DNA of 64,000 nucleotides from Saccharococcus thermophilus (GTDB lineage: Bacteria > Bacillota > Bacilli > Bacillales > Anoxybacillaceae): contig NZ_JAASRS010000001.1 of the NCBI RefSeq assembly GCF_011761475.1, positions 2,914,001 through 2,978,000 of the forward strand, written 5' to 3'. A model generated the notes under the pieces. That model worked only from the letters and a program-made list of their open reading frames with translations. It was not told where the DNA came from and ran no database searches. A program made the translations under genes and the position numbers. Below are positions 5,222 to 54,233 of this stretch, one piece after another; positions within the stretch are counted from its first letter, which is position 1, and every line of letters begins with the position of its first letter.

Positions 5222-5554
5222 TTATTTTAGCACTTGGATGCCTTTAATAATATTCCAAATGACCACAACCAAGTTGACGATCCCCGCTGCAATAAAACCA
5301 AGCCATACTAGGCCGCTGCCGACCAAAACTGACACGTCGCTGCCTCCCCCTGTCCATCCAGTAAAAATAGCGGTAACGATAAACAACAAAATGGTCGCGG
5401 CTGGAATCAAGTGGGAAAGCAGCGCTTTTTTTGCATGGTGTTTCACTTCCGGGTGATCGGTGACAAAGTAAACAACAATCGGAAAGATGAACCCGGCAAA
5501 GAAAATGCTGAAGTAGCATAAGGACGCAAGCACTTTATTGGAATTCACCAACAA
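5222..5554 (-). CDS. DUF4870-type small membrane protein (YvlA-like by position)
   Basis: A 110-residue membrane protein with three hydrophobic segments (residues about 8-30, 45-66 and 78-104). The loop DHPEVKHHAKKALLSHLIP resembles the conserved loop of DUF4870 proteins. It is the first gene of a three-gene yvlA-yvlB-yvlD-like unit and ends 21 bp before the yvlB start. Function is unknown. The yvlA assignment rests mainly on position. Confidence 0.65.
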   Translation of the reverse strand: MLVNSNKVLASLCYFSIFFAGFIFPIVVYFVTDHPEVKHHAKKALLSHLIPAATILLFIVTAIFTGWTGGGSDVSVLVGSGLVWLGFIAAGIVNLVVVIWNIIKGIQVLK

Positions 5555-12072: not shown

Positions 12073-12306
12073 ACCGCCATCACCTCGCTAGTTCGCGATT
12101 CTTTATCTACTATTCTACCAAATCGCCTAAATAAATCCTATGCCGGCATGCATATTTTTTTCAACATCTTTTGCCGACCACTGGCGGATTCTTCCGCATA
12201 ACCACTTTCTTTGCCAAATCGACACTAGTTTTGTCAAGGAGAAAGGAATTTCTCTCTTAGATGGAAAATGATATAAAATAGAACGAAATAAGGAGGAATC
12301 GTGAAA

Positions 12307-12825
12307 ATGGAATTAAAAACAAGCAGTGTCGCGGAACGTCTTGGCGTATCGCCAAAAACGATTCAGCGCTGGGCAAAAAAATATAACGTCCCATGCCGCA
12401 AAAATGAATTCGGCCATTACGTCTTCGATGCCGAAGCCATCGCCTTGCTCGAACAGATTAAATTTGAGCAAAGCGCCACAGTAGAACCATATACCCGCCG
12501 CGAACAAAAAGAGAAACCACAAGATACGTTCTCCGCCGACGCGTTGTTTCAAACGTATGTTGAACCGCAGCTTGAACAGTTTACCTCCCGCCTCCAACAG
12601 ATCGAACACAAGCTCGATCAAAAAGCCGATGAAGTCGTTTCCGTCCAGCTTCTCCAGCATCGCCAAGAACTCGAAGAACTGGCCTCCTATCTTCGCGCAC
12701 TCGAGCAGCGAATTGACCATTTAGAAGAAAAGATGAATAAAAGCCAACAAGCCAGCACAGAAGAAAAAGGCAAACAAAAACCGAAGCGCCGCGGTCTCCG
12801 CCACATTATGGGTCTATTTGTATAA
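12307..12825 (+). CDS. racA: RacA-like chromosome-anchoring protein (MerR-type HTH plus coiled coil)
   Basis: About 172 residues. The N-terminal MerR-type helix-turn-helix (SSVAERLGVSPKTIQRWAKK, residues about 5-24, then FGHYVFDAEAI) is followed by a coiled coil (about 75-150) and a basic C-terminus (KGKQKPKRRGLRH). This is the plan of RacA, which binds centromere-like sites and tethers origins to DivIVA at the poles during sporulation. AGGAGG lies 10 bases before this ATG; a GTG two codons upstream has only 4-base spacing. It is divergent from minJ, another DivIVA partner, which is a suggestive setting. Confidence 0.7.
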   Translation: MELKTSSVAERLGVSPKTIQRWAKKYNVPCRKNEFGHYVFDAEAIALLEQIKFEQSATVEPYTRREQKEKPQDTFSADALFQTYVEPQLEQFTSRLQQIEHKLDQKADEVVSVQLLQHRQELEELASYLRALEQRIDHLEEKMNKSQQASTEEKGKQKPKRRGLRHIMGLFV

Positions 12826-12832
12826 TAAACGT

Positions 12833-12882
12833 CCTTCTCTCTTTTCCCTTTTCTAATTAAAAAGAGAGAAGGATCTTTTTTT
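12833..12882 (+). terminator. racA terminator
   Basis: A 13-bp stem CCTTCTCTCTTTT / AAAAGAGAGAAGG followed by ATC and seven T, 7 bp after the racA stop. Confidence 0.88.
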
Positions 12883-12904
12883 GAACCGAAACCTCGACGC
12901 GTTT

Positions 12905-12999
12905 CCCTTCTAGAATGCGAAGCATGTAGGATGGGTACGGCTGTATTTAAGACATGGATACCCCGACTAGAATCTTTGATTAGTCAGGGGAGGTTCACA
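12905..12999 (+). mobile_element. Orphan right end of an IS200/IS605-type (IS1341/TnpB) element
   Basis: No coding frame. The stretch ends in a hairpin (CCCCGACTA at 12960-12968 with TAGTC-A-GGGG ending at 12991) followed by AGGTTCAC. The complete TnpB element at about 52.7-54.2 kb ends in the same arrangement: a hairpin with arms CTCCCACCTT / AAGGTGGGAG and then AGGTTCAT. This suggests the terminal palindrome and cleavage region of a different IS605-type element whose tnpB is absent. The left limit is a guess. The rest of the 319-bp gap (12826-13144) holds the racA terminator and an AT-rich stretch with TATAAT at 13096 that may be the promoter of the next gene. Confidence 0.5.
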
Positions 13000-13144
13000 A
13001 AAACTTCCTTCACATCTTCTTCACCTATTTTTTATCATTTTTTAATAATCGTTATTTATAATGAACCGTGTTTTCGTTCTTTTTCGTTATTTGTTATAAT
13101 AAACGGTGTTTTACTGAAGCCGTATGAAAAGGAGCGAAAGAACG

Positions 13145-14815
13145 ATGGAGCGGAACGAACGAGTTGCTATAGGAATTGCGATACTTCTTTTAGCTATTTA
13201 CCTTTCTCCGCTTTATATACTAGGGGAAAATGCGCATATTCGAGTTCATGACAACATGGATTCGAACATCGCTTGGTATAAAGTGCTGACGCGGAGCGGT
13301 GAGCTGTTCGGCCCGATTAACGCAACGATTCCGCAAGTGATTAATGGCCTTCCGCGCAACGCGTTCGGCACCGAATTCAGCGGCATCGTTTGGCTCCATG
13401 CGCTGTTTCCTTCGATGGTAGCTTATGCGCTTAGCCAGACGATTACCCGCGTTTTTGCGTTCATTGGCATGTATTTATTGTTAAAGCGCCATTTCCTGCC
13501 CGCGAAAGAGTCCTATCTCATTCGCGTCGGCGCATCATTGGCATTCGCGCTTACTCCGTTTTGGCCGTCCGGCATGTTAAGCACCCTTGGCATGCCGCTG
13601 GCGCTATGGTCCTTTTTAACGATCCGAAAAGGCGAAGCGACATGGAAAGAATGGCTCGTCCTTGTGCTCCTGCCGTTTTACGCGAGTTTCGTGCTTGGCT
13701 TTTTCTTTTTCCTTACCGCCATGGCACTGCTGTGGTTGCGTGACGTCATCGTCCGCAAACAATGGAACTGGCCGTTTTTTGGCGCGATCGCATTGATGAC
13801 AAGCGTGTTTCTAGCGATTGAATATCGGCTCGTTTATTCACTCGTATTTGGAGAAGAACCAACGAGCCGAAACGAATTTCTCTCTTCGAAGCTTAGTTTC
13901 TTCCAGTGCGTGCAGCTGACGTTCAAAAACTACTTGCTCGGCCATACGCATGTGATGACCGTTCATACGTATGTCATTCTGCCTATCTTATGGATCGCTT
14001 TCTTTTTTGCTTTGGCTAAACGAAACGAAACGCTGGAAAAACGATTTCTTTTCCTATTCGTGCTCAATTTTGTCTTGTCGACATGGTATGCGTTTTGGTT
14101 TTATAAAGGATGGCAGCCGCTAAAAGAGCGTTTTTCACTATTAAATACGTTTAATTTCGCCCGGTTTCACTTTTTGCGGCCAATGGTGATCTATTTAGAT
14201 TTTGCGTTAGCGCTGCAAATTCTTTGGAAGCGGGGAATAAAGTGGCAACGCGTGGTCCCCGTCGCCCTGGCGCTGCAGCTATTGATTCTTGGCGGTTTTA
14301 ATGAGGAGATTCGCTATCGTCTTATTGGATCACCGTCATTTAAAGAATTTTACGCCGAACACTTGTTTAATGAAATCAAAAACTATATCGGCAAACCACA
14401 AAGTTCATATCGCGTCGCAAGCGTTGGGCTTCATCCAGCCATCGCGCAATATAATGGATTTTATACGCTTGATACGTATAACAATTTTTATCCGTTATCA
14501 TACAAGCATCAATTTCGCAAAATCATCGCCAAGGAGCTTGATAAAAGCCCGGTTCTGAAAGATTATTTTGACCATTGGGGCAACCGCGTCTATCTGTTTT
14601 CTGCGGAACTCGGGAAAAACTATATGTTCCGCAAAACATCTCATAAAAAAATTCATCATTTCGATATCAATACGAAAGTGTTTAAGCAGATGGGAGGACG
14701 CTATATTTTCTCTTCCGTCCCAATCATGAACGCGAAACAAATTCATCTTCGTTTGTTAAAAACGTTTAGCGATCATGAATCCGTTTGGAAAATTTATTTA
14801 TACGAAGTGGAATGA
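13145..14815 (+). CDS. YkoS-like polytopic membrane protein (DUF6044-type)
   Basis: A 556-residue integral membrane protein with about ten hydrophobic helices up to residue about 385 and a soluble C-terminal domain of about 170 residues. Its plan, with an acidic first loop (HDNMDSNIAWYK), recalls GT-C-like membrane glycosyltransferases or mannosyltransferase-like proteins such as B. subtilis YkoS. The ATG at 13145 has AAGGAG 10 bases upstream; an earlier ATG lacks a site. It ends 14 bp before a GT2 glycosyltransferase, the same pairing as ykoS-ykoT, so both probably modify a lipid or envelope polymer. The substrate is unknown. Confidence 0.6.
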   Translation: MERNERVAIGIAILLLAIYLSPLYILGENAHIRVHDNMDSNIAWYKVLTRSGELFGPINATIPQVINGLPRNAFGTEFSGIVWLHALFPSMVAYALSQTITRVFAFIGMYLLLKRHFLPAKESYLIRVGASLAFALTPFWPSGMLSTLGMPLALWSFLTIRKGEATWKEWLVLVLLPFYASFVLGFFFFLTAMALLWLRDVIVRKQWNWPFFGAIALMTSVFLAIEYRLVYSLVFGEEPTSRNEFLSSKLSFFQCVQLTFKNYLLGHTHVMTVHTYVILPILWIAFFFALAKRNETLEKRFLFLFVLNFVLSTWYAFWFYKGWQPLKERFSLLNTFNFARFHFLRPMVIYLDFALALQILWKRGIKWQRVVPVALALQLLILGGFNEEIRYRLIGSPSFKEFYAEHLFNEIKNYIGKPQSSYRVASVGLHPAIAQYNGFYTLDTYNNFYPLSYKHQFRKIIAKELDKSPVLKDYFDHWGNRVYLFSAELGKNYMFRKTSHKKIHHFDINTKVFKQMGGRYIFSSVPIMNAKQIHLRLLKTFSDHESVWKIYLYEVE

Positions 14816-29509: not shown

Positions 29510-30303
29510 ATGCGAAAAATACATATTTCTGAGGCAAAAAGCGGCGACATTCTTGCCGCTGATATCTTCGGAGTCAACGGCGCGATTCTGCTACCAAGAG
29601 GAGCGGCGCTAACAAACCAATACATCCGCTCGCTGCAAATGAAAGGGATTCAATATATTTGCATTAACGACGAACAGACAGATGATATCGTCCCGCATCC
29701 GCAGTCCAACGATCCAGCAACAAACAATGAAAAAAATGTATGAAACGATAGCGGCATTGGTCGAGCAACAAAACTAGCAAGCCGTTGACCGAAGAGGAAA
29801 AAGATATTCTCCGCCGCCATACTTTTTTCGGCTTCGAGCTTCTGCGGCGCCAGCGCAACATTTCCCTATTTTCCGCCCACTGCGCGCTCCAGCATCATGA
29901 GCGCTATGACGGAAGCGGCTATCCGCGCCAGCTGGCGGGAGAAGAAATTCATGAATATTCGCGCATTGTGGCCATCGCTGACGTGTTTGACGCGCTCACC
30001 TCGGCGCGCTACCATCGCAAACAATATTCACCGCATGAAGCGGCCGAATATTTATGCGCGGCCGGCGGCGTTTTCGACTATGAATTAATTAAACTATTTC
30101 TCTCGTACATCGCCATTTACCCAATCGCCACTACGGTCGTGTTAAACACCGGGTACATTGGGGTTGTGTCGCAAGTATTCCCAGACTTTCCGCTGCGGCC
30201 AGTCGTGCGCGTCATTAAAGATCCGTACGGCGAAGAACTGAAAAGTCCGTACGAAATCGATTTGCGCAAAGAAATTAATGTGACAATCGTCAAAGCCGTG
30301 TAA
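29510..30303 (+). pseudogene. Broken HD-GYP domain cyclic-di-GMP phosphodiesterase gene
   Basis: The first piece (MRKIHISEAKSGDILAADIF..., 77 residues) is the N-terminal domain common in Bacillus HD-GYP proteins and stops at 29743. A second piece in another frame begins about 29770 (KPLTEEEKDILRRHTFFGFELL) and runs to 30303 with HHERYDGSGYP intact. The section between, which should carry the HD of HDxGK and about 100 residues, is missing. The gene thus has an internal deletion plus frame changes and cannot make an active enzyme. The IS256 copy ends 54 bp upstream and probably removed its promoter. Confidence 0.82.
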
Positions 30304-30340
30304 AAAACACCGAGCCCCACGCCACGGGACTCGGTGTTTT
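30304..30340. terminator. Bidirectional terminator between the HD-GYP pseudogene and the fliT-side gene
   Basis: Stem AAAACACCGAG / CTCGGTGTTTT extended by CCC/GGG, with A- and T-rich flanks, between convergent genes. Confidence 0.85.
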
Positions 30341-30732
30341 CATTGCTCCACATATCGCTTCAACAGTTGGGTGATGGTCATCTTCCACGCTTGAAACGCG
30401 GGGGAAAGATGTTGCTCGACAATACGTTGCTTCAAGTTCGTATCGCCAAAATTCCCATCTAATTGATACGCCTCTTCGAGCACATCGGAAAAGAGCCGCA
30501 AGTGATGGACGATGTCCGTTTCCTCGGCAAATAGCTGGCATAAATGTACGTTTGTCGTACCAATCTGGGCAAACGCCGCAAAAATATCGGCCAGCACCTC
30601 GTCCCCTTGCGTCCGCTCGTAATTCACAAAGCTTTCTTCAACATAAGCAAACCCTTCCTCAATCGTATCCAAAAGCTCCACGTATTTTTGCACCATTTCG
30701 AGTTGTGGAGTCGTTAACGAAATCATTTGCAT
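30340..30732 (-). CDS. Unidentified 130-residue protein at the end of the fliD-fliS-fliT operon
   Basis: A mostly helical, acidic protein (MQMISLTTPQLEMVQKYVELLDTIEEGFAYVEESF...) without signal peptide or membrane segment. It follows fliT by 6 bp and ends at a terminator, so it belongs to the flaG-fliD-fliS-fliT operon. I do not recognise the family with certainty. The helical make-up and position suggest a flagellar chaperone-like or regulatory protein; that is inference only. Two ATGs, two codons apart, are possible. Confidence 0.7.
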   Translation of the reverse strand: MQMISLTTPQLEMVQKYVELLDTIEEGFAYVEESFVNYERTQGDEVLADIFAAFAQIGTTNVHLCQLFAEETDIVHHLRLFSDVLEEAYQLDGNFGDTNLKQRIVEQHLSPAFQAWKMTITQLLKRYVEQ

Positions 30733-30738
30733 CCCAAC

Positions 30739-31092
30739 CTATCGTTTTTTATCGTAAAACATTCCGTCTATTGCTAAAGACTGCCCATACGGATTCACGT
30801 AATGATGATTCGCTATTTTCTTCTGGCGAATCATCGTTAAATCGCGCTGAATTTGCCGCTTCAGCTCCCGCAACTGCGCATCAATTTCTTGATTCCAAAG
30901 CACGATTTGTCTGCCAAGGCGCTGTTCTTCCTCACTATACGGCGGACGAAGCTCCCGTAACAGCTCCTCCCGTTCGGCAAGCAGCCGCTTGATCGTTTCA
31001 ATCGTCTCCCCGCGCTTTTCTGCCTGAACAGGCGCGCACACGAGATCACGCAGCTCTTTCGTCAAATGAAATAACTCGGTCACGACGCTCAT
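30739..31092 (-). CDS. fliT: FliT-like flagellar chaperone
   Basis: A 117-residue helical protein whose place directly after fliS (one-base overlap) and size match B. subtilis FliT. The middle is charged coiled coil (EKRGETIETIKRLLAEREELLRELR). FliT acts as export chaperone for the cap protein FliD. Sequence in this family is poorly conserved, so the call rests on position, size and helical content. Confidence 0.75.
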   Translation of the reverse strand: MSVVTELFHLTKELRDLVCAPVQAEKRGETIETIKRLLAEREELLRELRPPYSEEEQRLGRQIVLWNQEIDAQLRELKRQIQRDLTMIRQKKIANHHYVNPYGQSLAIDGMFYDKKR

Positions 31093-52735: not shown

Positions 52736-54233
52736 ATTTTTCCCGAGAAGTCTCCCTTCCTCTAAACGGAGTGAAGGAGGGAGAGGAATCGGGAAGTTTT
52801 TGATTCCCAAAAACGAACATATGTGCTATAATCAAACCATCCATCAAACAAAGAAAGAAGGGATTCTCATGCTTCGGGGCCAAAAAGTGTTCTTCCGGGC
52901 ATCGAAAGCGGATTTGGACCGATTGTACGCCTGCAATCGCGAATCCGCCCGTGTTTGGAATGAATGTCTTCGATTGGCGAAGGAACATTTTCTCCAATAC
53001 GGCCGTTGGATTACCAAAAGCGAACTGCAAAAACAAACGAAAAGAAAGTTCCATCTTCACAGCCAATCGATTCAAGCTGTCTGCCACAAATACCTCTTCG
53101 CAAGACAATCTTCTCACCACGCGATTCAGCAAGGATATCCTGCTCGCTACCCTTACAAGAAAAAGAAGTACTTCCCAACGAAATGGGCGAAAGACGGTTT
53201 CAAAGTGTATGAAAACGGAAAAATTGAACTCTCCATGGGCATTCATCACGGAAAACGGGAAAAGCCGATCGTCGTGTATGCGTCGCATCTGCCAAAAGGA
53301 ACGATCAAAGAAATCGAATGCTGCTTTGATCATGGTCTCTATCTTGCGGTGACGTATGAAGATGGACAAAAGGCAACAGCGTACAAACCGAACTTCTCCG
53401 TCGGAGTCGATCTTGGAGAAGTACACACCATCGGTGCGTTTTGCGAAACCGGGCAAGCCCTCCTCATCACGGGAAGAAAAATACGCTCCCTTCACCGGCT
53501 GCGGAATAAAAAACTGGCAGAGATCCAGCGACTTCAATCGAAATGTCAAAAAGGATCCCGTCAATGGAAAAAGTATGAGAGAGCGAAACAATACGTGTTG
53601 TCGAAATCCGAAAGACAGCTGCGGGATGCGCTCCATAAAACGACCAAACAGTTTGTCGACTGGTGCCGTGCCCAATCGGTTTCCGATGTGTACATCGGAA
53701 ACATCGAAGGAGTGCAGCGAAACACGAGAAAGAAAAAGCGGTTAAGCCGCAAACAAGCGCAAAAGCTCTCAAATTGGTCATTTGGGAAAGTGAAGCAGTA
53801 TCTCACTTATAAGCTGGCTCCACATGGCATTCGCTTGCATGAAATCAAAGAGTCGTATACAAGCCAGACATGTCCTGTCTGCCAAAAGAGAAAAAAAGTG
53901 TCTTCCCGCCTGTTTGTGTGCCGGTGTGGGTATGAGGAGCATCGTGACGTTCACGGCGCGAGAAATATCTTAAGCAAAGCGCTGCATGGCACCTTCAAAC
54001 ACTGGAACGTACAAACGAAGCTGATGTATCTACGGATTGCGTAAGCAAGAAGTAGTAGAAGGGTTGGACCGCCCCATCGGTGTAGTACGATGTTGCTTAC
54101 TGGACCCATCGGGAAGTCTTCCGATGCATTCATCGAGTGGAAGGAGACTGCCTTCTTCTGCGCAGAAGCTTCTTCGATGGAGATGGTAAGAAACTCCCAC
54201 CTTTTCATGGAATGAAGGTGGGAGAGGTTCATT
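52736..54233 (+). mobile_element. IS200/IS605-type TnpB element (IS1341 group), no TnpA
   Basis: The left end, just after TTTAA (52731-52735), carries the palindromic stretch CTCCCTTCC ... GAAGGAGGGAG (52752-52782). The right end has a perfect 10-bp hairpin CTCCCACCTT / AAGGTGGGAG and then AGGTTCAT (ending about 54230). No direct repeats flank it, as expected. It carries tnpB only and so needs TnpA from elsewhere to move. It sits between hutP and its probable promoter. Exact end bases are estimates. Confidence 0.8.
52869..54044 (+). CDS. tnpB: RNA-guided endonuclease TnpB
   Basis: A 391-residue TnpB. The RuvC-like site is complete: D181 (VGVDLGEVH), E280 (IGNIEGVQ) and D360 (EHRDVHGARN). The zinc ribbon has C335, C338, C351 and C353 (CPVC...CRCG). 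AAGAAGGG precedes the ATG at 52869; the frame is open upstream through the element end. TnpB uses an omega RNA from the element right end to cut matching DNA beside a short 5' motif, helping keep the element in place. All active-site residues are kept, so it may be active. Confidence 0.92.
   Translation: MLRGQKVFFRASKADLDRLYACNRESARVWNECLRLAKEHFLQYGRWITKSELQKQTKRKFHLHSQSIQAVCHKYLFARQSSHHAIQQGYPARYPYKKKKYFPTKWAKDGFKVYENGKIELSMGIHHGKREKPIVVYASHLPKGTIKEIECCFDHGLYLAVTYEDGQKATAYKPNFSVGVDLGEVHTIGAFCETGQALLITGRKIRSLHRLRNKKLAEIQRLQSKCQKGSRQWKKYERAKQYVLSKSERQLRDALHKTTKQFVDWCRAQSVSDVYIGNIEGVQRNTRKKKRLSRKQAQKLSNWSFGKVKQYLTYKLAPHGIRLHEIKESYTSQTCPVCQKRKKVSSRLFVCRCGYEEHRDVHGARNILSKALHGTFKHWNVQTKLMYLRIA

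Follow-up and report, generated by a model that had tools for sequence, protein, structure and literature searches.

The window analyzed here is the whole stretch of 64,000 nucleotides from Saccharococcus thermophilus, corresponding to G000:C1:2914001-2978000 in a genome of 3.15 Mb (G000 being this genome). Two genes on its plus strand delimit the spacer considered below: the upstream ORF (12301-12825) encodes a MerR-type HTH protein (PF13411, 5.6e-10), and the downstream ORF (13124-14815) encodes a DUF6044 protein (PF19510, 1.9e-249). The MerR-like gene is followed on the same strand by a terminator-like hairpin (12831-12874) and a T-tract, together occupying 12831-12884. The RNA fold of this hairpin has -19.7 kcal/mol (z -4.1, reached by none of 200 shuffles); it is missing from our terminator scan, its 14-nt loop exceeding the loop limit of 8 used there. 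The TTGA at 12881-12884, which is the target of the insertion described below, comes from TTTTTTTGA, the end of the T-tract.

Parts, boundaries and insertion site of the element

The segment 12885-12998 (plus strand) is a complete 114-bp element, in which an IS605-type left end (LE) is fused to a right end (RE). The LE tip ACCGAAACC starts at 12885, immediately after TTGA. The LE hairpin CCCTTCTAGAATGCGAAGCATGTAGGATGGG at 12905-12935 (plus strand), recognized by its predicted fold and by homology, reads CCCTTCTA-GA-ATGC-GAA-GCAT-G-TAGGATGGG, and its last three bases overlap the segment derived from the right end. The fusion junction lies at 12929-12938 (plus strand) and joins GGAT to GGGTAC in the window, sister copies having GGATGAGTAC there. 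The right-end-derived segment (12933-12998, plus strand) corresponds to the last 66 nt of a TnpB omega-RNA scaffold; it contains the RE hairpin CCCCGACTAG...TAGTCAGGGG at 12961-12990, supported by the RNA fold and by compensatory changes of the helix in tnpB-linked relatives, and the RE tip AGGTTCAC at 12991-12998, with GGTTCAC found shortly 3' of the tnpB match in all 18 loci inspected. The two hairpins make near-terminal palindromes, one at each end, and six nucleotides of the LE tip are complementary to the RE tip (TGAACC / GGTTCA), TGA of the former being target bases. With 114 bp the element is too short for a transposase gene; a 106-aa ORF at 12931-13251 extends beyond the element and is a mechanical ORF.

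The orthologous spacer of Parageobacillus caldoxylosilyticus NBRC 107762 (G001, contig C75) is empty. There TTTTGA runs directly into AAAAACTTCC, whereas in the window TTTTGA is followed by ACC...TTCAC and then by AAAAACTTCC, so that the comparison is two-sided; written with the flanks, ...CTTTTTTTTGA + AAAAACTTCCTTAACATC at the empty site stands against ...CTTTTTTTGA + ACCGAAACC...GGGGAGGTTCAC + AAAAACTTCCTTCACATC in the window. The element therefore comprises 12885-12998, 114 bp, and stands 3' of TTGA without a target duplication. The empty site has the same terminator-like hairpin and T-tract, and the plus-strand bases 12999-13014 (AAAAACTTCCTTCACA), which occupy the position of a would-be guide, are ordinary host flank common to it (AAAAACTTCCTTAACA beside TTTTGA).

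Six relatives have the left flank of this spacer: in four of them (G001, G003, G011 and G016) both gene flanks are present and the element is not, and two (G002 and G008) have other insertions. The same spacer (window positions 12880-13060) was hit in three genomes, the hits being the window element and the insertions of G002 and G008. The G002 spacer carries a reverse miniature copy that resembles the family of the tnpB element at 54.2 kb in the window and lies inside a longer insertion, and the G008 spacer has an apparent tnpB element ~60 bp downstream.

TTGA precedes the LE in 13 of the 14 LE-bearing copies inspected, a count that leaves out further weak LE matches; the exception, L108, has TTTA. 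At the site of the sister copy L011 (see below) only the left flank aligns in the six relatives: TTTGAA is found without the element in G001, G002, G008 and G011, and the left flank does not run into TTTGAA in the other two, G003 and G016. The site of another sister copy, L107, was not used to set boundaries, because G002 shows differences there beyond the element itself.

Homologous copies and the cognate tnpB element

A search of the same genome with window positions 12880-13040 found eight other places: the right part was matched at 5384, 1516060, 1554796 and 44800, the left part at 1553027 and 2425003, and the two remaining matches were weak and short. The right-end identity to four other places in this genome is 88%, 88%, 87% and 81%, and one of these is located directly 3' of an open tnpB. 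It is this homology, and not the motif or the fold, that identifies the RE hairpin and tip as a genuine IS605-type right end: the GGGGAGGTTCAC motif, allowing up to two mismatches, has four matches in the window with 2.4 expected by chance. A second apparent LE tip near 20.34 kb (minus strand) was rejected, since it matches over a 15-mer and the remainder of the element is absent. Among 41 genomes of the family, element matches at E 1e-4 or better are found in four: all three of this genus (the present genome, G001 and G002) and G016, where the match is the left end only.

The LE-RE fusion, TTTAGGATGAGTACAGCTG with slight variation and GTAGGATGGGTACGGCTG in the window copy, occurs in the window, at G000:C1:5384 (L011), at G001:C33:1091 and at G002:C1:2319389. 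The window copy, L011, L106 and L107 are four copies of one fusion with the same junction (alignment A2), and they occupy four unrelated sites, their flanks (~280 bases per side) having no similarity. Alignment A2 also reveals a one-base deletion in the conserved core of the window copy, AAGACATGG for AAGACAATGG; in L011 the left hairpin is partly deleted. Two shorter forms were found at G002:C1:1602253 and, as a ~60-bp form, at G000:C1:2425003. In the latter (L014, G000:C1:2425003-2425057) GGGGAGGTTCAC follows the LE hairpin immediately. Two solo right ends, at G000:C1:1516060 (L012) and G001:C69:238-377, retain more of the scaffold, with 70 and 68 bits, respectively; L012 has unrelated bases in place of the 5' strand of the main core helix.

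The matches at 1553027 and 1554796 frame an open tnpB of 465 aa (L010, at 1.553 Mb of G000:C1) that has the same LE and RE; the L010 element also contains a tnpA remnant on the other strand. The retained segment of the window copy is 87% identical to the right end of L010 over 62 columns, and 12905-12935 shares homology with the left ends of L010, L104 and L103 (tnpB elements) and of L105 (a tnpA element), elements of G001 and G002 included. NCBIfam assigns the 465-aa protein to guided_TnpB (111 bits against a cut-off of 100); three Cas12f sequences in the PDB resemble it weakly at the sequence level, and it has a 94% identical counterpart in G001 (L104). Its translation contains the motifs DLG, FEYLG and DLNAS, which we take to have the RuvC role. 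As read from the translations, the TnpB proteins of L010 (889-2286) and L104 have no CxxC...CxxC zinc-finger cysteines between FEYLG and DLNAS; for the TNB domain this TnpB reaches 24.2, short of the Pfam cut-off of 26.3, unlike the TnpB at 52.9-54.0 kb of the window with 75.4.

In this genome the search for Y1 transposases recovered no intact copy: its five rows, from four places, are each truncated or interrupted by stops. Any mobilization must therefore be past or have had another source. A Y1 tnpA frame in G001:C71, situated behind the same LE type, is open across the Y1 domain (84 aa of it profile-scanned). The search of this genome for Y1 transposases gave no tnpA hit near the window tnpB copy at 52869-54044. 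This copy and those at G000:C1 2293113, 1255534, 1250145 and 2540636 are five tnpB ORFs with family scores of 170-176 bits, probably copies of one element type.

The first-pass annotation of the window had described 12905-12999 as an orphan IS605-type right end lacking both tnpB and a left end. The hairpin followed by AGGTTCAC is indeed there, and it matches the right end directly 3' of the open tnpB in this genome as well as others in relatives. The annotation was to be given up if no such sequence lay 3' of any tnpB gene in related genomes; since similar sequence stands there, it holds on this point. The left end had been overlooked: its hairpin opens the very interval described, its tip lies further upstream, and the coordinates have to be moved to those defined by the empty site. 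The layout had been likened to that of the tnpB element at 52.8-54.2 kb, and the order of hairpin and AGGTTCA at the right end is the same, but the tip there reads AGGTTCAT; the stems differ, in agreement with the assignment to another element type. The TnpB of the 52.8-54.2 kb element matches OrfB_IS605 and the TNB domain over the cut-offs.

The guide-RNA scaffold and the part retained

With a threshold of E 1e-40, the tnpB protein search of 397 genomes of the order had matches in 14 genomes, our own included. Of the 23 places found, the 18 that reach the 3' end of tnpB were examined, the five others being fragments lacking this end. Alignment A1 (18 rows) omits L117 and L129, near copies of L128 and L122, and includes L104 and L103 from G001; alignment A3 (17 rows) is A1 without L135, which has an internal deletion. 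Several rows of both alignments come from behind broken or partial tnpB copies, and the shared end of the rows is partly by construction, because each was trimmed where GGTTCA first occurs downstream of tnpB.

The consensus of the 17 sequences in A3 has 38 pairs, with 97.0% of cells paired (32-44% in slid versions) and 43 cells changed on both sides versus 11.7 in shuffles (0 of 500). In these 17 scaffolds behind tnpB genes or remnants, three long-range helices link the 3' part of tnpB to the RE: GAAC/GTTC, CNTTGTCTT/AAGAYAANG (with a 2-pair extension) and TAGY/RCTG. Within this three-helix subset two pairs are changed on both sides, which was reached by 142 of 500 shuffles, and there are seven such cells, which was reached by none. 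The covariation of the subset is modest, so that support for the long-range helices comes from sequence conservation, the slide controls and a few compensatory cells, not from strong covariation; part of their region is also protein-coding.

Homology of the miniature starts at A1 column 163, which by reading of the alignment is A3 column 94, and the tnpB-derived 5' strands of all three long-range helices are therefore lost. The window copy has both strands for 11 of the 38 A3 pairs (the RE hairpin), only the 3' strand for 22, and neither strand for five.

The covariance-model search covered 12 loci (37,470 bases). Complete scaffolds scored 134.9 (L104), 133.2 (L103) and 127.9 bits (L010), high values that are by construction for L010/L113, L104 and L103, because all of these are in the model alignment. 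The miniature copies L011, L106 and L107 had 44.8, 42.9 and 40.5 bits, respectively, and the shorter L108 had 39.0 bits; the window copy had 22.6 bits (E 0.0021 in 37,470 bases, E 0.18 in the 3-genome search). The other scores were 70.1 bits for the solo RE L012, 26.0 for the tnpA element L105, 19.2 for the ~60-bp L014 and 16.8 for the solo RE L013.

The local RNA fold of the RE stretch is unremarkable (z -1.2). As DNA, the whole window element folds no more stably than its shuffles (z -1.2), and the minimum-energy structure of the sister copy L107 contains a different hairpin in the LE region, the expected LE hairpin being absent (z -1.7). Because the folds are no better than shuffles, we did not use folding energy as evidence for a functional RNA. 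The Rfam scan of the window at gathering thresholds identified no family, and the promoter scan identified no promoter-like site inside the element; the two found start at 13009 and 13020, downstream of it, and are no more than expected by chance. Exact matches to TTGA plus the guide in viral contigs (one collection) numbered zero.

A complete omega-RNA scaffold (133 bits) is present in P. caldoxylosilyticus at L103 (G001:C86, about 29990-30870), together with both ends and a wrecked tnpB that has a large internal deletion and a frameshift. The tnpB at G001:C121 is open over 465 codons translated. L103 is a better candidate for a trans-acting guide RNA than the window element. A wider proposal, which we consider very unlikely, is that this TnpB family is served by protein-less elements, the C121 TnpB using the C86 scaffold in trans. 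Dead elements would then go on protecting the sites they occupy, and the miniatures, the window element among them, would represent a final stage, either inert or decoys to which TnpB binds but which give it no guide.

Origin of the element and relation to known systems

We are highly confident that 12885-12998 is a decayed non-autonomous miniature IS605-type element (PATE/MITE) that has lost its core and is probably neither mobile nor a working guide RNA. It fits the PATE kind (palindrome-associated transposable elements, the IS605-type counterpart of MITEs), terminal-only, fused versions of IS605-type transposons, for which the original report proposes repeat-mediated deletion of the core (PMC3119063). 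An IS605-type transposon with tnpA and tnpB would have lost everything between the LE hairpin and the last ~66 nt of the RE. The resulting unit would keep the DNA hairpins and terminal sites required by a Y1 transposase, and a TnpA from elsewhere could thus act on it, peeling it out as a single strand and pasting it 3' of TTGA. The window copy would have landed behind the terminator-like hairpin of the MerR-like gene and decayed afterwards. Past mobilization in trans by TnpA is suggested here by analogy with the ISDra2 mechanism. Against this explanation, independent deletions via the same microhomology could in principle yield an identical junction; the broken Y1 transposase copies of this genome and the DNA folds of the window element and L107 also weigh against it.

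Alternatively, a full tnpB element might have lost its core at this very site, the miniature form never having moved. IS605-type elements with deleted cores have been described from Haloquadratum (PMC3119063) and the window copy is degraded, but the same junction is found at four unrelated sites in three genomes and the orthologous site is empty in G001, which makes this origin highly improbable. The position between two co-directional genes and the presence of a GC-rich hairpin would also be compatible with a host regulatory structure, either an extra terminator or a 5' element of the DUF6044 gene. However, no T-tract follows the RE hairpin, and the structure is absent from the orthologous spacer in G001; with both gene flanks lacking the element in G003, G011 and G016 as well, and with different insertions in G002 and G008, the probability of a host function seems negligible.

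The first-pass annotation had suggested a possible stand-alone guide RNA, with a guide at about 13000-13016 (the would-be guide is 12999-13014) and a TnpB encoded elsewhere as partner. In this reading the transcribed element hands the 465-aa TnpB the guide in trans, the target being TTGA-flanked copies of the empty site. A TnpB encoded elsewhere would indeed be the partner, and the cognate 465-aa tnpB ORF is open in the genome; the right-end identity of 87% (62 columns) and the geometry of guide and TTGA, which is proper for the empty allele, agree with such a role. The predicted RNA fold pairs AACCUC of the LE with GAGGUU of the RE, which could provide an alternative closing stem; the window copy is still recovered by the covariance model at E 0.0021 in 37,470 bases; and protein-less omega-RNA 'ghost loci' are described for Fanzor (PMC10432273). 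The RNA, however, would be without its original core: only the RE hairpin (11 of 38 pairs) is two-stranded, the pseudoknot-like and core helices having lost their original 5' strands, and in ISDra2 the pseudoknot and stem 1 involve nucleotides -116 to -86 of the 116-nt scaffold (PMC10097598). The score of 22.6 bits (E 0.18 across the three genomes searched), the single base missing from the conserved core, the lack of an internal promoter-like site combined with a terminator-like hairpin directly upstream, and the lack of an exact viral target in the one collection also argue against it, and we regard a stand-alone omega RNA as extremely unlikely. Since the guide RNA is kept only in part, the window element is probably an ordinary decayed relic rather than a working guide, and it is probably neither transcribed nor functional at present.

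In summary, what looks like a stand-alone guide RNA can be accounted for by a miniature transposon made of two fused ends, and candidates of this kind can be checked simply by asking whether the 5' strands of the scaffold core, which are located inside tnpB, survive. The analysis also defines both ends, the target TTGA and a model of the scaffold for a Bacilli TnpB family, the member of which found here is without the zinc-finger cysteines.

Our search of the literature on TnpB/IS605 miniature elements found no published description of this particular element and no publication joining TnpB, omega RNA and MITE. A paper on IS605 stem loops in Borrelia plasmids (PMC2775950) may be a further precedent. 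The element resembles the PATEs of Haloquadratum walsbyi (PMC3119063) in its IS605-type ends, which carry palindromes near the termini and have been joined through core loss, in the absence of target duplication and of coding capacity, and in its occurrence at several sites; most tnpA copies are disrupted there, too. It differs from them in its bacterial host (Parageobacillus), the TTGA target, another parent element and the long RE segment kept. Moreover, the same source defines PATEs as lacking terminal inverted repeats, whereas here the LE tip together with target bases is complementary to the RE tip (TGAACC / GGTTCA).

The Fanzor ghost loci (PMC10432273) likewise are element ends without a nuclease gene, but the omega RNA is present there, whereas its core is missing from the window element. 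With ISDra2 of the IS200/IS605 family the element shares insertion 3' of TTGA(T) without duplication, the ISDra2 target being TTGAT (PMC8612924), as well as palindromes at both ends, an RE forming the 3' end of the guide-RNA scaffold and a flank in the place of the guide (PMC8612924 and PMC10097598); unlike ISDra2, it carries neither tnpA nor tnpB, and its scaffold is reduced to the 3' part. In the scaffolds aligned here, the GAAC/GTTC helix recalls the ISDra2 pseudoknot, in which -5U to -3C pair with -103A to -105G (PMC10097598).
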